Source: a virus
Reading direction: 5' to 3' (one strand)
Virus record (IMG/VR): IMGVR_UViG_3300012411_000621
Coordinates: 1-24,573 of that record
Length of the DNA stretch: 24,573 nt
The notes below the pieces were generated by a model. The model saw only the letters and a program-made list of their open reading frames with translations, had not been told where the DNA came from and made no database searches. The translations under genes were made by a program, and so were the position numbers. Below, one piece after another: positions 10,013 to 23,512 of this stretch (positions are counted from its first letter, which is position 1; the number at the start of each line of letters is the position of its first letter).

Positions 10013-10385
10013 TTATGATTCTTTATTGGGCATAAAATATAAGAAAAATGGAAGAACCATAGAAGGATTGAATTGTTTAGGACTAGTTAATTTAATTCAT
10101 ATACTACAAGATAAAGAATTCCCTATTGATCAACTTCCTTCAGAAGAAGAATTAATTTATAAATTAGTAATAGAAGAACAGAAATTATTTCAAAAAATAG
10201 AAATTCCTGAAAAAGATTGTATAGTATTATTTAAGTTCATTCCTAAAAAATTTCATGTAGGATGTATTATGGAAGATACTTCTAAATTTATACATATAAT
10301 TGAGAATAGAAATGTTACAATAGACAGTCTTGAGTCTCCTATCTGGAAAAGACTATTAATAGGATATTATAAATGGATAAAATAA
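9996..10385 (+). CDS. Tail tip assembly peptidase, gpK-like (NlpC/P60 domain only)
   Basis: The 129-aa ORF starts at TTG 9996; GGAGG at 9983-9987, inside the gpL-like gene, supports this start with 8 bases of spacing. The NlpC/P60 catalytic cysteine is C27 in 'RTIEGLNCLGLV' (the usual D-C-x-G-L-V has N here). H87 in KFHVG is the likely second catalytic residue and H100 in FIHI the third. Lambda gpK carries an N-terminal JAMM domain as well; that domain is absent, so this is the peptidase half only. gpK-type proteins are required for tail tip assembly and may process or hydrolyse cell wall. It overlaps the next gene by 13 bases. Catalytic activity is inferred from three visible residues. Confidence 0.78.
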   Translation: MVQSFNYDSLLGIKYKKNGRTIEGLNCLGLVNLIHILQDKEFPIDQLPSEEELIYKLVIEEQKLFQKIEIPEKDCIVLFKFIPKKFHVGCIMEDTSKFIHIIENRNVTIDSLESPIWKRLLIGYYKWIK

Positions 10386-13300
10386 CATTAAAAGAAATTA
10401 ATAATCCTTTAGAAGATACTACATCTGATGTAAGATTAATTGATAATTCTGATAATAAATCTTTATTAAAATTATGTAATCTTTACATACCTGATTTATC
10501 TAATCATTTAGTTTTTCATAATAGAAAACTAATACAATTAGAAGAATTAGATACTACATTTGTAACTAAAGGAGATTATATTTTAGTTGTCCCTAAAACA
10601 GAAGGTGGTGCTGATGGAGGAGGCATCCTTAAAATGGCAGCTATGATGGCATTGGCTATTGTTGCTATTTATGCTGGTCAGTGGTATATGGCTCCTGAAT
10701 TAATATCTCCTACCACTGGAGCTATAGTTGGTGGTGGTTTAGGAGGCAGTGCATTTGGAGCATCATTGTTAACTGCTGGTGTAATGATGGCAGGAGGTAT
10801 GCTAATTAATGCTGTTATTCCTCCTATTTCTCAAGATAATACAGCTTCTGCTACTGGTTCTACATCTTATAGTTGGAAACCTACTACTACACAACAACAA
10901 GGATTGCCTTGGCAAAAATATTATGGTATAAGTAAAGCATCAGGAAATATTATTACTACATATGAAGAAACTATATCTGATAAATCTTATACCCATATAT
11001 TAACTGATTTTGGTTTAGGTCCTAATTTTGGTTTAAGTGATATAACAATTAATGATGCTCCTTATACAACTTTCTATTCCAGTAAAAGTAAAAATTTTAA
11101 GATAAATACTAGAGTTGGGGATTTAGATCAAAGTGTTATAGAAGATTTTATGTTCACCAAATTAAACAAAGATTTATTTTTGGATATATCCGTGAGTAGT
11201 AAAAATAAATGGGTAAAAAAACATATTGGGTATAGAGTAGATGATGAAATAATTTCAACTAATCCAACTCTTTATCCTAAAAAGTTTATTTGTACTGCTG
11301 TGAACAAAACACTTCCAGCAACAGGTATTACAGGAAATACAGAACCTATTTGGGATATATCACCAAATGGTATTACCATAGATCAAGATATAACTTGGAA
11401 AGAAAATGGAGATTATCCATATTATTTTATAACAGATAGTAGTAATTTTGATAGATTAGAAATAGATATTAATTTTCCTGATGGGTTATACACTACTGAT
11501 ACAACAGGAAGTATGCAATATGAGACTGTAAGTTTTTCTGTCTATATAAAAGAAAAAAATGAAACAGAATGGATGCCTATAACATTTAGAGTAGTACCAG
11601 ATAATTATACTGATCCTAACTATACTTGGTTAAATTATTGTGTAGACAATATGATAGCTTATAAAGATACTATACAAGTACAAGGATCACACCCTTTTAA
11701 AGATGGGCAAGAAGTGGTAATTTTTGGTGGAGTTTATCAACCACCACCACCTACTGTACAATTACCTGATCCATTTAATATATTAAATGGTAAATCCTTT
11801 TTTATAAATGTTATAAATGCTACTACATTTACTATTAATAATCCTGGTGTAAAAATAGGAAGTAAATTTACTGTAGGGAATTATGAGTATCCTGAATATT
11901 ATATGAGAAATGCTGGCGCACCCTCTTCAGAAGTAAATTATGGAAATGGTCAATGGTCAGCAGGATTTTATGTAGAAAATATATGGTATCAAGCAGAAAT
12001 TGGATCAACTGATATTTCTGATCATTTAGATGGGCAATTTTATCAATCTGATGATTTTATAAATAAACAAGCAACATGGCAATGGTTTAAAGGTACGAAA
12101 ATAGTTGCAAAATATTTAGAACAAAATGGAGAAGGGTACTATTATAGTAATGTAGCTAATAATACTTTATCTGCTTTTATCCATACTTTTAAAAGTCCTC
12201 TTATAGAGAAAAAAGGACAATATGAAATAAAAATATGGAGATGGACACCAAAAGACCCTTACGCAACATATACAGGAAGTAAGGCAGTAGTAAATACTAT
12301 AAGACAGGTATTAAATGAGGATTTTTCTTATCCTAGACAAGTATTATTAGGAGTTAGAGCTGTTGCTACAGAAAAATTAAGTGGTAGTTTTAGTTTATCT
12401 AGTATAATAAAAGGGGCTTTGGTAAAAACATACCATGCTGATGAAGTAATTGATCCTACAGATGGATTTAATTATAGATGTAAAACAAATCTTACTTCTA
12501 CAATAGAACCACATCTAGATATTTATAATGTAAATACAAATCCAACAGGACATTGGGAACAAAAAGGTCATAATGGTATAGTATGGAAAACTGGTGGAGA
12601 TTATTCTTCTACTCCTATATGGAGAGTAGAGTATTCTAATAATCCTGCATGGGTATGTTATGATATCCTAACACAACCAGTCTATAATAATTCAAGTATA
12701 GTTTTATGGTCTGATAATAATGTTTATAGATGTACAACAGATCATATATCTTCCACAAATAATCAACCATTAAGTATAAATGGTTATAAATATTGGATTT
12801 TAGATAATAGATATATTACAAAAACTAATTGGTCTAGCAATAAAATCTATACTGGTTATGATTTTATAAGATATGAAGGATCAGATTCAGATAGACTAAA
12901 CTTGACAGATTTTAGAAATTGGGCTGATTTTTGTGATGTATTAGTATCTAATGGAAAAGATGGTTACGAAAGAAGATTTGAATTTAATGGAGGATTTGAA
13001 TCTGAAACTAATTTATGGGAAGCAGCTTTACAAGTATGTGCAATGTCAAGAGCAACTTTAGTATGGAATGGAATAACTCTGAATGTTATCTTAGATCAAA
13101 TAGCAATCCCTGTACAATTATTTTCTTCTGGAAACATTATACAAGATTCTTTTGAAGAAACATTTCTATCAATGGAAGAAAGAACAGGAGAATTAGAAAT
13201 AATTTTTAATAATGCAGAAAAAAATTATGAAAGAGATACTTTCTTAGTTTTTAACCCTGATTTAGATACATCTTCTAATAAAACCTCTTTGAATCTAATT

Positions 13301-16300
13301 GGTGTTACTAAACCTTCTCAAGCATGGAGAACAGGAAGATTTGCTTTATTATGTAATCAGTATCAAAAAAGAATTATAAAATTTGATGCTTCAATTGATG
13401 CTATTGCTTGTACTATAGGAGATGTAATTTATTTTCAACATGATGTTACCAAATGGGGACAATCTGGTTCAAGAATAAAAGCTATAAATAGTAACACTGT
13501 TACTCTTTCTGAACCAATTATTATGGAAACAGGAAAAAATTATAGTTTATTAACTAGAATTTATGATCCACTTCAAGAAATAGAAATATATCCTATTAAA
13601 GAAGTTTATACTTTTGCTGGTACTACTTCAACTGTTACTATAAAAGATTCTTGGAGTATTTCTCCTTCAATCTATGATGTATATTCTTTTGGTGAGACAA
13701 ATAGTGAAGCCAAAAAATTTAGAATAACAAATATAGAAAAAAGTCAAGACCAAGTAGTAACTATAGAAGCTATAGAATATAATGATAATATTTATTTACT
13801 TGATGAAGATGAACCAACTATACCTGAAACAACCTTTAAGTCTATTTCTTCTTTAAAAATTGTGACTGGATTGTCTACTATTGAACAAAATACTCATGAT
13901 GAGAGTGGGAATTTAAAAAAAGATATTATAGTTTCTTACAATATACCCGAAAATTCTTTTTTTAGAAGAGGTAGAATCTTTTATAAGGATATAAATAATG
14001 AGAATAGTGAGTATGAAGAATCTTCTTATATAAATAGAATTTCTAATATTAAAACTAATACTACTTATAAAATTATTGTTGTCAGTGAATCTTATACAGG
14101 AAAAACTACTGATATAGATTTTTCTCCTTTTATTTATATTACTACAACTGGATATAATTCTGGAGTTATTAGTAATCCTTCTGTAGAATATGAAGTAAAA
14201 GGATTACAAATATTCAATCAAGGAAATTCTTATATTTTTGAGGGAAAAGATTGTAAATTCTCTTGGTATCCAGCAAGTATTATAAGTTCTAATTATGATG
14301 CAGATGGAGAACCAGATGGAGCTAGCACAGATAAAAACTCCACGCAGTATTTTAAAGATTATGAAGTAAAAATTTATGATGAAAATGGGAATTTAAGAAG
14401 AACTGAATATGTTACTGATACTTTTTATACCTATACTTTTGAAAAGAATTCTGAAGATGGTAATGGTACTTCTATAAGAGTTTTTCAAATTCAAGTAAAA
14501 GCTAGGGATATTAATTATAATATCTCAACAAAAGCCAATAAGTTACTTGTAGAAAATCCTATACCAAATGAAGTAGATTTTACTTTAGATTCTTCAGTAC
14601 TTTCTTTTACAATAAATATTACTCCTTCAGAAGATACTGATATTCAAGGATATTCTATTTATGCTTCTAAAATATCAGGATTTACTCCTGATGCAACTAC
14701 ATTAATAAATACAGGAGTAGAAACAAGTTTTATAAAAACATGTTCTGCTTCAGAAATAGGTACATGGTATATTAAAGTTATGCCTTATGATTGTTTTGGT
14801 GAAATACTTACCACAACTACAGAATCTAGTATAACTGTAATAGATGAAAATCCTTTAGATGGCATTCCTCCCGCAATACCAACAGGACTTTCTTTAAGTA
14901 CAGCCATTGATAGTATAGGACAAAATAATACTTCTTATATTGAAGCAACTTGGAATACTAATAGTGAAACAGATTTTGCTAATTATATTTTACAATTACA
15001 AAAATCTATAGAGACAAAATACATTGAATATTTTGAAACTAATACTAAACATAAATTTAGTGGACTTGTTTCAGGAGTAACTTATACAGTAAAAATAAAA
15101 GCAGTAGATAAATGGAGTAATAATAGTGATTATAGTGCAGGAGTTTCTTTATTAAGTGCTTTAGATACAACTCCACCAGCAATACCTACAGGATTAGTAA
15201 CAACAACAGGATTTAAAAAAGTTATTATAACTTTTAATTCTAATACTGAAGCAGATTTAGCTGGATATGAAGTTCATGTATCAACTTCTTCAGGATTTAC
15301 TCCTGACAATGCAACTTTGAAAAGTAAAGGACTTAACACTTTAGTTTCTTTTGATGGTGCAGTTAATACAACATATTATGTTAAAATAAGAGCCTATGAT
15401 TGGTCAGGAAATTATTCTGATTATACAACTCAATCATCTGTGACTACATCATTTATAGAAAGTTCTGATATAAACTCTTTTGTTATTACAGCATCTAAAA
15501 TTTATACAAAAATTCCTATAATAACAGGAGATACATGGACTGATAATTCTCCTACTTCTGGTTTTATAGCGTGGAATGAACATAAATTATATTATAATGG
15601 TGTAGAGTATACTATCACAGCAGGAAATACTAATAATAAATATATTTATTGGGATGGAAGTTCTTCTTATGATATAACTAATACAAATCCTGCACTAACT
15701 GATAGTCAATTTATAATTGCCACTAATTTAAGTGGGATACATGATTTAGCATGGAATGCTTTAGCTAATGAAGTTATAGGTTCTGCTTATATACAAAATG
15801 CAGCAATAATTAATGCTAAAATAGCAGACCTTGCAGTAGATTCAGCAAAGATAGCATTAGCAACTATTACTGATGCTCAAATTTCTAGTTTATCTGTAGA
15901 TAAAGTTACTGCTGGCTCAATGAATATTACATGGTCAGGTGGGAATATTAGATCAGGACAAACAGCCTACAATACTGGAACTGGTTTCTGGTTAGGAAAT
16001 TCAGGAGGAACTGCTAAATTTTCTATTGGTGATCCTACTGGACAAAATATAACATGGGATGGTTCTATACTCTCTATTACAGGAACAATGACCATTCTTC
16101 CAGGAACAGTTGTCCCTTGGGCAGATATTTCAGGAAAACCCACTTCTTTAACTGATATTAGTTCTTCTGAAGGAATAAAATTATCTGGAATAGAAGATAA
16201 TGCAACAGTAGGAGCAACTTGGGGAACAAATTTACTAAGTATTCCTTCTGTTTTAACTACTCCTACAGGAACAGGGTTATTTCTATCAGCAAGTAGTATG

Positions 16301-17713
16301 GGATATTATTCTGGAGGTTCTTGGAAAACATATATAGATAATACTGGTAACATGTTTTTAGGAGATATTCTAGGAGGAAATTCAGGACTATCTTGGAACC
16401 AATCAAGTGGAATATTAAGTATTATAGGTACTATAACTGCTAGATCAGGTTCTTTTGGTGATAGTTCTAATAGAATTGTTGTAGAATCTACTGGTTTAAA
16501 TATAGGGTCTACTGGAAGTATTAAAGGTGGACAAACTGCATATGATAATGGAATTGGTTTTTGGTTAGGTAATGTTACTGGGACTCCTAAATTCTCTATT
16601 GGAAATAGTTCTGGTAATAAATTATTATGGGATGGAACTACTTTAAGTGTAAATGGTAAAGTAGCTGGAACTATTCAAGATACTTTATCAATAAGTACAT
16701 CAGGTTCCTTAAGTTCAGGACAAACAGCCTACAATACTGGAACTGGTTTCTGGTTAGAATATAATGGAGGAACACCTAGATTTTCTTTAGGGTCTTCGAC
16801 TAAATATTTAAAATGGGATGGTTCTACTTTAGGCATTAGAGGAGATTTAAATGCAAGTGATATAATAACTGGAGATTTGACTAGTGTTAATGTAATAGCT
16901 GGTACTTTTATGACTAAGGGTACTAGACTTGTGGCATCATGTACTACTGGACAATCTACTTTAGATGTAGAAGATATTACAACTTTATATAATACAGGAA
17001 CACCTCATACATCAGGAAGTGGGTGGATAATTGATGTTGGGAATGATAGAGATTATATAACATGGACAGGAGTCAGTGGAAATACTTTAACTGGTGTTAT
17101 TGGTTTACTTACTCATACTGTAGGAAGTAGAGGAGGTTCAAATAATCCTATTCTTGTTCCTAAAAGACCCTCTATAATAATGACTGATGTTGTTAATGAT
17201 TTACGAATTTTTGGTGATAGAAGTGATGGAGTAATTAAAGAATTAATATCTTTAGGAGATGTTAATACAAATGCTCTACTAAATATTGGAGATGTAGATG
17301 TTAATTATAGAGCAGGATATTTTGATAGTTGTTGGTCGGAAACTGTTTGGATAAGAAACTCTGGAGTTGGTAATGCTTTAATAGTAGAAAATACTGGAGA
17401 TTCTGAAACACCGGGAAATGGTAATGAGGCAATACGAGGCACTTCTACTTATGATGGTGGAATTTATGGATGGTCTTTAGATCATATTGGAGTTAAAGGA
17501 GAATCAACTAATGGTAATGGAGGATATTTTTCAGCAGGACTTGTAAAAGGTTCTATAGGTATGAATTTTTATGAACATACAAATCTTCCGACTGATAGAA
17601 GTGTAGGGCAGATAATAGTAGTTCATAATACTAGTTGGTCTCCAGATTATAGAGTATGCTACTCAGAAGGAACAAACTGGAGATTAATAGATGGAAATAC
17701 AATAGTGTCTTAG
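10373..17713 (+). CDS. Central tail fibre / receptor-binding protein, gpI-gpJ fusion
   Basis: This 2446-aa protein starts at ATG 10373. Residues 1-75 look like a gpI-type N-terminus; residues about 80-150 are Gly/Ala/Met-rich and hydrophobic (ILKMAAMMALAIVAIYAGQ; GLGGSAFGASLLTAGVMMAG), as in the second half of lambda gpI, then run into a gpJ-type body. Residues about 871-910 (GGFESETNLWEAALQVCAMS, then RATLVWNGITLNVI) fit the conserved core of gpJ and related tip attachment proteins. Three fibronectin type III-like domains follow at about 1394-1490, 1497-1597 and 1599-1690, the last two beginning PPAIPTGL. Residues about 1857-2150 hold three copies of a fibre repeat with 'GQTAY..G.GFWL....GT..FS.G'. 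The C-terminus (about 2320-2446) is Gly-rich like a fibre tip. Small aromatic modules interrupt the middle. It probably forms the trimeric central spike and binds the receptor. Confidence 0.88.
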   Translation: MDKITLKEINNPLEDTTSDVRLIDNSDNKSLLKLCNLYIPDLSNHLVFHNRKLIQLEELDTTFVTKGDYILVVPKTEGGADGGGILKMAAMMALAIVAIYAGQWYMAPELISPTTGAIVGGGLGGSAFGASLLTAGVMMAGGMLINAVIPPISQDNTASATGSTSYSWKPTTTQQQGLPWQKYYGISKASGNIITTYEETISDKSYTHILTDFGLGPNFGLSDITINDAPYTTFYSSKSKNFKINTRVGDLDQSVIEDFMFTKLNKDLFLDISVSSKNKWVKKHIGYRVDDEIISTNPTLYPKKFICTAVNKTLPATGITGNTEPIWDISPNGITIDQDITWKENGDYPYYFITDSSNFDRLEIDINFPDGLYTTDTTGSMQYETVSFSVYIKEKNETEWMPITFRVVPDNYTDPNYTWLNYCVDNMIAYKDTIQVQGSHPFKDGQEVVIFGGVYQPPPPTVQLPDPFNILNGKSFFINVINATTFTINNPGVKIGSKFTVGNYEYPEYYMRNAGAPSSEVNYGNGQWSAGFYVENIWYQAEIGSTDISDHLDGQFYQSDDFINKQATWQWFKGTKIVAKYLEQNGEGYYYSNVANNTLSAFIHTFKSPLIEKKGQYEIKIWRWTPKDPYATYTGSKAVVNTIRQVLNEDFSYPRQVLLGVRAVATEKLSGSFSLSSIIKGALVKTYHADEVIDPTDGFNYRCKTNLTSTIEPHLDIYNVNTNPTGHWEQKGHNGIVWKTGGDYSSTPIWRVEYSNNPAWVCYDILTQPVYNNSSIVLWSDNNVYRCTTDHISSTNNQPLSINGYKYWILDNRYITKTNWSSNKIYTGYDFIRYEGSDSDRLNLTDFRNWADFCDVLVSNGKDGYERRFEFNGGFESETNLWEAALQVCAMSRATLVWNGITLNVILDQIAIPVQLFSSGNIIQDSFEETFLSMEERTGELEIIFNNAEKNYERDTFLVFNPDLDTSSNKTSLNLIGVTKPSQAWRTGRFALLCNQYQKRIIKFDASIDAIACTIGDVIYFQHDVTKWGQSGSRIKAINSNTVTLSEPIIMETGKNYSLLTRIYDPLQEIEIYPIKEVYTFAGTTSTVTIKDSWSISPSIYDVYSFGETNSEAKKFRITNIEKSQDQVVTIEAIEYNDNIYLLDEDEPTIPETTFKSISSLKIVTGLSTIEQNTHDESGNLKKDIIVSYNIPENSFFRRGRIFYKDINNENSEYEESSYINRISNIKTNTTYKIIVVSESYTGKTTDIDFSPFIYITTTGYNSGVISNPSVEYEVKGLQIFNQGNSYIFEGKDCKFSWYPASIISSNYDADGEPDGASTDKNSTQYFKDYEVKIYDENGNLRRTEYVTDTFYTYTFEKNSEDGNGTSIRVFQIQVKARDINYNISTKANKLLVENPIPNEVDFTLDSSVLSFTINITPSEDTDIQGYSIYASKISGFTPDATTLINTGVETSFIKTCSASEIGTWYIKVMPYDCFGEILTTTTESSITVIDENPLDGIPPAIPTGLSLSTAIDSIGQNNTSYIEATWNTNSETDFANYILQLQKSIETKYIEYFETNTKHKFSGLVSGVTYTVKIKAVDKWSNNSDYSAGVSLLSALDTTPPAIPTGLVTTTGFKKVIITFNSNTEADLAGYEVHVSTSSGFTPDNATLKSKGLNTLVSFDGAVNTTYYVKIRAYDWSGNYSDYTTQSSVTTSFIESSDINSFVITASKIYTKIPIITGDTWTDNSPTSGFIAWNEHKLYYNGVEYTITAGNTNNKYIYWDGSSSYDITNTNPALTDSQFIIATNLSGIHDLAWNALANEVIGSAYIQNAAIINAKIADLAVDSAKIALATITDAQISSLSVDKVTAGSMNITWSGGNIRSGQTAYNTGTGFWLGNSGGTAKFSIGDPTGQNITWDGSILSITGTMTILPGTVVPWADISGKPTSLTDISSSEGIKLSGIEDNATVGATWGTNLLSIPSVLTTPTGTGLFLSASSMGYYSGGSWKTYIDNTGNMFLGDILGGNSGLSWNQSSGILSIIGTITARSGSFGDSSNRIVVESTGLNIGSTGSIKGGQTAYDNGIGFWLGNVTGTPKFSIGNSSGNKLLWDGTTLSVNGKVAGTIQDTLSISTSGSLSSGQTAYNTGTGFWLEYNGGTPRFSLGSSTKYLKWDGSTLGIRGDLNASDIITGDLTSVNVIAGTFMTKGTRLVASCTTGQSTLDVEDITTLYNTGTPHTSGSGWIIDVGNDRDYITWTGVSGNTLTGVIGLLTHTVGSRGGSNNPILVPKRPSIIMTDVVNDLRIFGDRSDGVIKELISLGDVNTNALLNIGDVDVNYRAGYFDSCWSETVWIRNSGVGNALIVENTGDSETPGNGNEAIRGTSTYDGGIYGWSLDHIGVKGESTNGNGGYFSAGLVKGSIGMNFYEHTNLPTDRSVGQIIVVHNTSWSPDYRVCYSEGTNWRLIDGNTIVS
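15953..15995 (+). repeat. 43-bp exact direct repeat, copy 1 (in gpJ-like gene)
   Basis: Identical to 16715-16757, 762 bases downstream and in the same reading frame. It codes the 'GQTAYNTGTGFWL' core of a fibre repeat. The intermediate copy near 16530 is similar only at protein level, so copies 1 and 3 were recently homogenised or duplicated. Confidence 0.95.
16715..16757 (+). repeat. 43-bp exact direct repeat, copy 2 (in gpJ-like gene)
   Basis: Second exact copy of the repeat at 15953-15995, again coding the GQTAYNTGTGFWL segment. The flanks diverge at once (GNSGG after the first copy, EYNGG after this one). Confidence 0.95.
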
Positions 17714-17741: not shown

Positions 17742-17792
17742 ATGTATACAAAGTACAATACTTATTTAAAATATAGTTGTGAGGAGGTGTAA
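17742..17792 (+). CDS. 16-codon leader ORF upstream of the tail fibre gene
   Basis: ATG 17742 is preceded by AAAGGAG with 8 bases of spacing from GGAG, a full-strength ribosome binding site. It codes MYTKYNTYLKYSCEEV and stops at TAA 17790-17792. Its last codons contain the AGGAGGTG that serves the fibre gene, whose likely start is two bases after the stop codon. The peptide is rich in Tyr and Lys and resembles nothing I recognise. The arrangement suggests translational coupling or control of the fibre gene rather than a functional product. An alternative is a +1 frameshift at GTG-TAA joining it to the fibre frame. Confidence 0.5.
   Translation: MYTKYNTYLKYSCEEV
17782..17789 (+). promoter_or_regulatory. 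Strong ribosome binding site that sets the fibre start
   Basis: AGGAGGTG is a full match to the 16S anti-Shine-Dalgarno sequence. It lies inside the reading frame that begins at GTG 17779, so that GTG cannot be the start it serves. The in-frame codon at proper spacing (6 bases after AGGAGG) is ATT 17794. No ATG, GTG or TTG occurs in frame nearby. Confidence 0.7.
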
Positions 17793-17793
17793 T

Positions 17794-19830
17794 ATTTCTC
17801 AATATCGTATAGGAAAAGTTACAGTAGTAACTGGAAGTGCAGTAGTAATAGGAGAAAATACAGAATTTATTGATAATATTGAAGTGGGTTATAATTTTAA
17901 TATCTTAGGAGAGAATGTTATTTATACTATTCAATCTATAGATACTGACTTACAGATAACACTAACATCAAATTATACAGGAAATTCTGATAATAATTTA
18001 AATTATATTGTTGGTAGAGATTTTACGCAAAATCTTAATCTTCCAGAAATATGGCCTGGAGATAAAGATTGGGCATATCATTTAACTACAGGTTTAAGAA
18101 TAATAGATAATGCCTTAACTCAAACATTATTAACTACATCTTCTCCTATATTTAAAACTATAAAACTTACCGATCTTACCAATGGATATGTTCCTTACCA
18201 TGTCAATGATGCTACTGGATTAGCAAATTCTCCAATATTTACAGATGGAATAAATATCGGCATCGGGAGTACCACTCCAAATGATAAATTGGTTGTTACT
18301 TCTACCACAAATAATTATGGATTAACCGTTGAAGGGTCAGGTGATATTGGAGCAACATTCCGAATGATGACTGGTGGAACAAACTCTGGTGCTAGAAACT
18401 GGGGATTTGTTATACCGACCATAGTCAATGGTGATTTTGCGATTAGACAATCAGACGCTAAAGGTGGTGACCCTATTACTGCTGGAACGACAAGGTTCTA
18501 TATTAAAAACGACGGCAACGTGGGCATCGGGACGACTTCTTTTGGAACTTCAACAGTAAAAATATTAGCTTTAGGAGAAGGAACAGCACCTACAACAAGT
18601 CCTGCTGATATAGTTCAATTATGGTCTGCTAATGAAGGTGGTAGGGCAGGATATAATCAAATTCATATGAGGAATGAAGCTGGTCAGTCAGGAGCAATTG
18701 CATTTCAAGCACCATTACAAAACATTTTAGATAATACACAGTGGAAAATTTGGAGCAATGGGACGCTGGAGAATGTGGGGACGCAGATATCAGTAACCGG
18801 CATCACTGCCGGAGTCTGCGCTACGGCAAATACTCAGGGTCTTGCTATAGGTAAATTGGTCAAATTCGGAGCGGGCGGCTCCACGGCGAATACGACCTAT
18901 GAAGTCACCGCCCTTACTGCCAACGTATCGTTTACCATCAATAACACATCTATAACGGCTGCTACGGCGGTAACATGCTACGAAGTCACCCCCGGATGCG
19001 TGGGGGCAGATGCGAAGGGGCCAGAAGGGTGGTGGAAAGAAGGTGGCAACATAAGGTTGTGGAGAGAGTGCGAAGGCCCTAATACGCAACTTGGAGCACT
19101 CTATTCTTTAAAGGCGATAACTACCGCAATAAATCAAAGGATAGCCTGGAGTTACAATAGTTACGGCGTCCGCGATTTCAGAAAGACATTTGCCGGGCGA
19201 ACCGTGACTTTTGGATGCTGGGTGAAAACGTCAACGCCATCAAGTGTAACCATGCGATTTTACGATGATGTCTCAGGCTACACATCCTCAGCGCAACATA
19301 CAGGAGGTGGCAGCTGGGAATGGCTGGAAGTATCTCATGCTTTTTCATCCTCCATTGCCGATATCGGATTCTATATTTATAATCCCGTTTCAGGAACTAC
19401 AGTGTATCTTTCTCAGCCCATGCTCGTCTTCGGCTCCTCCATCGGACAGGGGAACTATCAGTCCGCCCCAAATGAGACCATCAACTTTGAAAGCCCCATC
19501 ACCCTTTCAAGTTGGAACGGCACTACCGCCGGAGCGGACGGAGTGGTCAACGTAGAAGTCGAGTCAGCCGGGAAAATAGGAAAGGGGGTCAAAGCCTTTA
19601 ATTTGAACCTCCTCGCAAAAGATAGCGCAGTTGCGGACGGCGTGGGCCTTAAGGCTCAGACTTCGAGCACAAACACCAGCGGCTTCTCCGTTCGTCCGCA
19701 GGTGAATAACCTGACCAATGCCGCCACGGGCAGGATAGGGGCAGATGCGAATGGGGACTTCTATGCAGATGTAACCGCAGGAGGTACTTTAACTTCCACA
19801 ATCAATGTAATAGGTGTCACATTAAACTAA
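17794..19830 (+). CDS. Tail fibre / receptor-binding protein with GC-rich C-terminal half
   Basis: I place the start at ATT 17794 because of the AGGAGGTG site and because the protein then begins ISQYRIGKVTVVTGSAVVIG, the usual start of phage fibre proteins that attach by a 'YR.G.V.V..GS..V.G' beta domain. A GTG at 17779 would add five residues but has no binding site. The product is 678 aa. The middle has 'NIGIGSTTPNDKLVV' and 'GNVGIGTTSF', the common GIGTTxP fibre repeats. Residues from about 320 on are coded by GC-rich DNA and include a likely jelly-roll carbohydrate-binding domain (SLKAITTAINQRIAWSY, then GRTVTFGCWVKTS, then VSGTTVYLSQPMLVFG). The C-terminus 'NGDFYADVTAGGTLTSTINV' is typical of fibre tips. 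It probably determines host range. Confidence 0.75.
   Translation: MSQYRIGKVTVVTGSAVVIGENTEFIDNIEVGYNFNILGENVIYTIQSIDTDLQITLTSNYTGNSDNNLNYIVGRDFTQNLNLPEIWPGDKDWAYHLTTGLRIIDNALTQTLLTTSSPIFKTIKLTDLTNGYVPYHVNDATGLANSPIFTDGINIGIGSTTPNDKLVVTSTTNNYGLTVEGSGDIGATFRMMTGGTNSGARNWGFVIPTIVNGDFAIRQSDAKGGDPITAGTTRFYIKNDGNVGIGTTSFGTSTVKILALGEGTAPTTSPADIVQLWSANEGGRAGYNQIHMRNEAGQSGAIAFQAPLQNILDNTQWKIWSNGTLENVGTQISVTGITAGVCATANTQGLAIGKLVKFGAGGSTANTTYEVTALTANVSFTINNTSITAATAVTCYEVTPGCVGADAKGPEGWWKEGGNIRLWRECEGPNTQLGALYSLKAITTAINQRIAWSYNSYGVRDFRKTFAGRTVTFGCWVKTSTPSSVTMRFYDDVSGYTSSAQHTGGGSWEWLEVSHAFSSSIADIGFYIYNPVSGTTVYLSQPMLVFGSSIGQGNYQSAPNETINFESPITLSSWNGTTAGADGVVNVEVESAGKIGKGVKAFNLNLLAKDSAVADGVGLKAQTSSTNTSGFSVRPQVNNLTNAATGRIGADANGDFYADVTAGGTLTSTINVIGVTLN
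18746..19800. other. GC-rich island inside the tail fibre gene
   Basis: Base composition changes abruptly inside one reading frame. The line 18961-19020 has 39 G+C of 60 and 19501-19560 has 35 of 60, against 17 of 60 at 20041-20100. Codons such as GCG, GGC, ACG, GCC and CTC appear, which are rare elsewhere. A milder GC rise also occurs at about 18250-18540, with an AT-rich stretch between (18541-18745). The frame is intact, so the segment looks like an acquired functional module and not damage. Confidence 0.85.
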
Positions 19831-23066: not shown

Positions 23067-23115
23067 AAGCCCACTATGATGATTACCCCCTTTCATCATT
23101 TGTGGGCTTTCTTTT
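23067..23115. terminator. Intrinsic terminator between convergent operons
   Basis: AAGCCCAC (23067-23074) pairs with GTGGGCTT (23102-23109), and inside it ATGATGA (23076-23082) pairs with TCATCAT (23093-23099), around a C-rich loop. TTTCTTTTT follows on the plus strand. It ends the late operon and overlaps the end of the minus-strand methyltransferase fragment, so it may stop transcription from both sides. Confidence 0.85.
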
Positions 23116-23348
23116 TATTCTTCTATTTTATCTTTAAACCATCTTGCACCTGAAACTGCCAAATGAGTACAAGGAGGGAATGCTAATAGCATATCCCATT
23201 CTTGGTTTAATGTTTTTCTTACATCTCCTTGTATATGTGGACCTTCAATTTCAGAAGGTAGAAGGTCACAAGATACTACCTCATGACCTTTTTTTCTAAA
23301 TGCTTCTCTCACTATACCTGAAAACTCACAAGCAACTAATACTCTCAT
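23115..23348 (-). pseudogene. DNA methyltransferase, C-terminally truncated
   Basis: The 77-aa product starts MRVLVACEFSG, the standard opening of a phage family of class I DNA methyltransferase-like proteins of about 200 aa or more. C7-G11 (CEFSG) is the cofactor-binding loop; CDLLPSE at about 27-33 and IQGDV at 39-43 follow; FPPCTHLAVSGARWF at about 57-71 holds the PPC catalytic motif. The frame then stops after FKDKIEE, where full-length members continue through an ENP-type motif and the target recognition part. About half or more of the protein is missing. A TTG at 23366 would add six residues, but ATG 23348 matches the family start and sits two bases after the upstream stop. It is probably inactive unless another fragment completes it. 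Confidence 0.7.
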
Positions 23349-23350
23349 TC

Positions 23351-23512
23351 CTATACTATCTCCCAATAAAAAGATACTTTTTCTTGAAAATCATCAAATA
23401 CAAACTGTTCTATCATATCTTCTATATCTTCCTTTGTCATATCCTCTTCAAATTCAGACTCATCTATCTTTAAATAATGAGGTCTTAATTTTCCTATATA
23501 ACCATCTTTCAC
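23351..23512 (-). CDS. Small acidic ORF, possibly broken at its start
   Basis: From GTG 23512 (minus strand) a 53-aa frame runs to a TAG at 23351-23353: it includes YIGKLRPHYLKIDESEFEED and MIEQFVFDDFQEKVSFYW. The GTG has no proper binding site. Upstream, AAAGGTG overlapping the phosphoesterase stop is well placed for ATG 23530, which is in the same frame, but that start reads M-K-I-R and then TAG. So the natural start seems to be cut off by a stop at codon 5. Either the gene is newly broken, or it is made weakly from GTG, or the tetrapeptide is regulatory. I do not recognise the acidic product. It sits between the phosphoesterase and the methyltransferase fragment in one minus-strand operon. 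Confidence 0.5.
   Translation of the reverse strand: MKDGYIGKLRPHYLKIDESEFEEDMTKEDIEDMIEQFVFDDFQEKVSFYWEIV

Follow-up and report, generated by a model that had tools for sequence, protein, structure and literature searches.

The window, by which we mean the whole stretch of DNA analysed, is a linear virus record of 24,573 bases (IMG/VR IMGVR_UViG_3300012411_000621). It is one assembled contig with a GC content of 30% and a third-position GC content (GC3) of 0.12. The window contains a siphophage tail region with genes for a tape measure, an L-like minor tail protein, an NlpC-like protein, a lambda-J-like protein and a tail fibre, and 3' of the fibre gene lie small genes and a lysozyme gene. 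The features are as follows.

10373-17713, + strand: lambda-J-like protein gene (2446 aa, unusually long)
17794-19830, + strand: tail-fibre gene (ORF listed from a GTG at 17779; about 678-683 aa; ORF intact)
17794-18255, + strand: AT-rich N-terminal part of the fibre gene, with background codon usage (GC3 about 0.09-0.10)
18256-18534, + strand: mildly GC-raised patch, a fibre module widespread among phages that has DGNVGIGTT at its end, with relatives at loci L002-L006
18535-18738, + strand: AT-rich segment (GC3 0.09), 57-59% identical to fibre proteins at loci L051 and L052
18718-18780, + strand: linker QNILDNTQWKIWSNGTLENVG, counterpart of ENLLTNSGFxVWSN[GSA]TLENVG in tip carriers
18739-19827, + strand: segment imported as judged by composition (GC 51%, GC3 0.53), with its right edge between 19762 and the stop codon
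18781-18978, + strand: variable slot separating linker from tip (about 65 aa; in relatives about 130 aa, forming a CBM-like domain)
18979-19461, + strand: tip domain 1, a predicted CBM4/CBM22/CBM16-like beta jelly roll (Foldseek and VIA matches)
19462-19827, + strand: tip domain 2, a predicted beta-sandwich resembling the trimeric C-terminal tip of Bdellovibrio Bd2133
23115-23366, - strand: 83-aa ORF matching the first 97 of the 247 positions of phrog_757 (phage DNA methyltransferase family; E 9e-29), apparently a truncated methyltransferase gene

Towards its C-terminus, the lambda-J-like protein has repeats of the GQTAYNTGTGFWLGNxxGTxKFSIG type. The J protein of locus L008 (1144-6795) has the same repeat type, and its best segment is 40% identical over 339 aa. 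With the J and L-like genes as queries for close relatives of the recipient phage, we obtained one J match at 23% identity and then none, in a collection that may omit records very near the window; this yielded no close relative, and hence none bearing another tip. The start of the fibre gene deserves comment: AGGAGGTG lies at 17782-17789, just within the ORF listed from GTG 17779, and directly 3' of it, at 17794, is an ATT (ISQYRIGKVTVV...), the first plausible start after the GTG. The sequence suggests that this ATT, a rare start codon, is likelier than the GTG to be the fibre start. The fibre protein had no match in Pfam, PHROGs, NCBIfam or cultured phages.

We analysed the base composition along the fibre gene. 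The GC content per 60 bases was 0.23-0.33 in 17761-18240, 0.38-0.65 in 18781-19800, and 0.18-0.28 beyond 19800. An earlier note, made from the sequence alone, had described a rise from about 28% to 58-65% GC. The rise is real (51.1% GC and GC3 0.529 for 18739-19827, in a window of 30% GC), but its size was overstated, since 58-65% is reached only in some single 60-base lines of a GC-rich block with a mean of 51%. The same note had the GC-rich part in frame and intact, returning to background at the end of the gene; we found the fibre ORF to be unbroken from 17779 to 19830 and the GC content to fall as described after 19800. GC3 was about 0.10 as far as 18255, averaged 0.24 over 18256-18738 and reached 0.53 over 18739-19827, and the best two-segment change-point in GC3 fell at codon 321 (18739; BIC 815, compared with 900 without a change). 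No other 340-codon stretch of the phage has a GC3 above 0.18, and the neighbouring tail genes have background codon usage. The last 22 codons (from 19762) are possibly at background again, a split that BIC did not favour.

As a control for amino-acid content, we recoded the fibre segment with the phage's own codon usage. The recoded 18739-19827 had 36.4% GC and a GC3 of 0.119 ± 0.014, placing the observed GC3 at a z of about 29. By this measure amino-acid content accounts for about one third of the rise in GC and practically none of the rise in GC3, and recoding led us to reject low complexity or amino-acid make-up as the source of the GC-rich block.

The milder patch that had been noticed at 18250-18540 also exists, with a GC3 of 0.24 for 18256-18738 (z 5.8 on recoding), but it is small: its excess is concentrated in the 30-48 bp coding for DGNVGIGTT (18487/18505-18534), where GC3 is 0.75-0.9. 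L006 and L035 likewise show a local GC rise at this motif, but L004 does not. In moderately AT-rich fibres generally (L006 2514-9738, L035 6939), GC-ending codons in GNVGIGTT motifs are often above their flanks, commonly 0.4-0.75 compared with about 0.2; L004 differs. The two recombination steps that had been proposed on account of the patch gained little support, because the patch is mostly one motif and the models are only about 4 BIC units apart. A separate, older import and a single motif with odd codons are equally possible explanations of the patch. As a side observation on a relative of the adjoining AT-rich segment, the fibre gene of L051 (6807-8213) has GC 0.44 and GC3 0.32, and the other genes of L051 have GC 0.28-0.34 and GC3 0.15-0.23.

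A single-sequence scan found one relative of the tip, L008, with 42% identity over 273 aa. Using a two-row alignment, we found the tip at 42 IMG/VR loci in viral contigs of 27-62% GC, two of which (L008 and L011) represent a single contig. In the window, the C-terminal 287 or so residues of the fibre belong to this family. The tip forms the last 276-309 aa or so in all closed genes, and is preceded by about 180 to 1640 aa of sequence that differs between carriers (upstream lengths below about 180 aa reflect contig ends). In the stretches compared, only L008/L011 matched the window's L-like (26%), NlpC (33%) and J (31-40%) proteins; at the remaining loci the fibre was the only window gene matched. 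The tip therefore sits on otherwise different backbones, and its presence at 42 loci on phages with unrelated backbones is that of a horizontally exchanged receptor-binding module. A 1031-aa protein in a viral structure library matched the whole tip at 35% identity. The tip family is spread over many uncultivated phages; it is undescribed in the libraries searched, and the window protein matches nothing in Pfam, PHROGs or NCBIfam. In a tree of the tips, the window grouped loosely near L024, L012, L009 and L013. Few branches were strongly supported, and no donor lineage was named from the tree.

To further characterize the tip, we built a structural model from 37 family members (pLDDT 88.8), which has two domains. 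The predicted model of domain 1 has a beta jelly-roll fold and resembles carbohydrate-binding modules of CBM22 (2w5f, Z 13.1; 1h6x, Z 12.7) and CBM4 (4bj0, Z 12.2), as well as the jelly rolls of the phage tailspikes K2-2 TSP (8iq9, Z 12.0) and CBA120 TSP4 (5w6h, Z 11.5). The confidence of the model and these PDB matches agree with the jelly-roll-like domain that had been read from the sequence. We call domain 1 CBM-like and do not place it in a CBM family because the sequence matches no such family: the window protein has no Pfam match, and CBM_4_9 was found in only 1 of the 37 family members. Domain 2 was modelled apart as a monomer (19438-19827; pLDDT 91.5). It matched the Bd2133 tip (8ok3) with Z 9.8 and an rmsd of 2.9 A over 108 aligned residues, the next unrelated match having Z 7.1, and with Foldseek E values of 1.3e-3 to 3e-3, so that the two are predicted to share a fold. 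Domain 2 is short and divergent, and a profile search of PDB sequences did not list Bd2133 at E <= 10. From its predicted fold, its position and its neighbours, the tip is likely to be receptor-binding, and the imported part would most likely bind a cell-surface glycan.

For the 33 carriers that had sufficient coding DNA flanking the tip, we then compared the GC3 of the tip with that of its carrier. Tip GC3 tracks carrier GC3 (slope 0.63, r = 0.84, residual sd 0.067, n = 33). The difference between tip and carrier ranged from -0.28 to +0.10 in the 33 carriers and was +0.40 in the window (z = 5.0), a composition incongruent with the carrier in the manner of an exchanged module. The tips of nine other AT-rich carriers (GC3 0.15-0.26) have a GC3 of 0.13-0.35, which indicates that the protein does not require GC-rich codons. 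Relatives with a tip GC3 of about 0.50-0.53 live in phages of about 46-62% GC. The window tip thus has the composition of tips in such phages, which supports a recent import from a mid-GC phage. We put at roughly 85% the probability that the fibre gene recently gained its 3' half, an exchangeable receptor-binding tip, through recombination with a phage of about 46-62% GC. The idea of a recently imported module of receptor-binding type with undrifted codons is upheld by the window's position as an extreme GC3 outlier against 33 carriers; the claim that the donor must be high-GC is not, given the mid-GC phages in which such tips occur. Composition gives neither a date nor a donor name for the import.

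We searched for the donor in cultured phages (protein and DNA) and plasmids and found none. Two tip relatives used as queries against cultured phages gave no match, and a search with the slot (18763-18966) found no relatives. The donor search that the earlier note had recommended for the 3' part of the fibre thus gave no close donor: the best tip relatives are about 42-43% identical to the window protein across most of the tip, and there was no near-identical donor in these collections, which are incomplete. It is unlikely that the tip came from a bacterial genome, as a host gene or in a prophage, and not from another free phage. The jelly roll does resemble CBMs of bacterial enzymes, and domain 2 a Bdellovibrio fibre tip; against this, two pattern-based scans across the genomes of about 85,000 bacterial and archaeal species, which depend on short exact peptide matches and can miss divergent sources, found neither a donor nor any relative, compared with 42 loci in viral contigs.

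The left composition junction (18739-18766) lies inside the linker QNILDNTQWKIWSNGTLENVG. The first half of the linker has mostly AT-rich codons, and the second half (AGC AAT GGG ACG CTG GAG AAT GTG GGG) is donor-like, so the crossover seems to lie inside a linker common to both partners. In about half of the relatives, the linker ENLLTNSGFxVWSN[GSA]TLENVG precedes the slot and tip. The recipient would already have had a related linker. One crossover would have occurred in the stretch coding for WSN-TLEN, with the common linker keeping the reading frame, and another near the end of the gene, replacing the old tip. The phage would have kept its own N-terminal part, presumably the portion attached to the tail. 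The fibre gene of L014 (7581-8849), in a phage of about 56% GC, is a mirror case, with a GC3 of about 0.72 before its WSNATLEN linker and 0.33 after it; its sequence suggests import of a low-GC tip.

Two broader roles of the linker were considered and rejected. As a recombination site conserved at the DNA level, it would be expected to share codons: the same codon was used for the same residue at a rate of 0.473 in the linker compared with 0.423 in the tip, but the rate is up to 0.54 in conserved tip motifs. Nor is the linker the regular site of the largest composition step: of 20 carriers, three (the window, L014 and L047) had a large step there (combined p about 0.05-0.11, window included). 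It is doubtful, though conceivable, that phages of 27-62% GC draw on a pool of interchangeable tips, with a fold common to the fibre tips of predatory bacteria, that are joined by a standard linker NLLTNSGFxVWSNSTLEN and swapped by one-step recombination.

An assembly chimera, in which a second, mid-GC phage contributed DNA to this contig during metagenome assembly, perhaps through a join at the shared linker, is quite improbable. The window is a single metagenome-type virus record from one contig, and its left junction falls at a motif common to several phages, where misjoins are likelier. However, two misjoins about 1.05 kb apart would be required, both preserving the frame, and together they would also have to yield a complete C-terminal domain, a normal stop codon and, downstream, a gene whose ribosome-binding site and start are normal. 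Least probable of all is an old resident tip whose GC is held high by selection on protein composition, expression or the DNA itself: fibre genes are rich in Gly, Ala and Thr (the segment has 36% GC even with the phage's own codons, compared with about 29%) and the fibre gene of the AT-rich phage L051 is likewise raised (GC3 0.32 vs about 0.2), but the excess here sits at third positions (0.53 vs 0.12), the same tip stays at low GC3 in other AT-rich carriers, and the neighbouring tail genes are at background usage.

Fibre-tip exchange between phages is already a known process, and the window is one clean case of it. Tail-fibre and host-recognition modules are common to the unrelated Alteromonas phages A5, V22 and P24 (PMC10579305). 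The window resembles these phages in that a receptor-binding module is found on differing backbones through recombination. The Alteromonas phages share the whole fibre and a chaperone, whereas in the window only the C-terminal part of one gene has been replaced inside the ORF, and the evidence, unlike that in Alteromonas phages, comes from setting codon composition against that of 33 other carriers. The mosaic adhesive trimeric (MAT) fibres of Bdellovibrio, including Bd2133 and Bd1334, are mosaic fibres with swapped tips, and the Bd2133 tip is a trimeric beta-sandwich that had no PDB homologues at the time of publication (PMC10769870). The window fibre shares with them an interchangeable C-terminal tip, and its predicted domain 2 matches the Bd2133 tip above all other folds. 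Bd2133 is a bacterial predation fibre without a CBM-like domain, and the likeness seen between it and the window tip is one of predicted fold. Similarly, domain 1 resembles the CBM4/CBM22/CBM16 jelly rolls, including those of tailspikes 8iq9 and 5w6h, in fold (Z 11.5-13.1 over about 120-139 residues), whereas the identity is only 9-15%.

A change of receptor or host through import of the tip is plausible, though speculative. The window provides a quantified snapshot of a phage soon after a change of its fibre tip. Comparing the codon composition of a tip with that of its carrier, as done with the 33 carriers, distinguishes tip transfers that are recent from those that are old, and other receptor-binding families can be examined in the same way. 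The predicted combination of a jelly roll with a Bd2133-like sandwich hints that the fold of the Bd2133 tip also occurs in phages.
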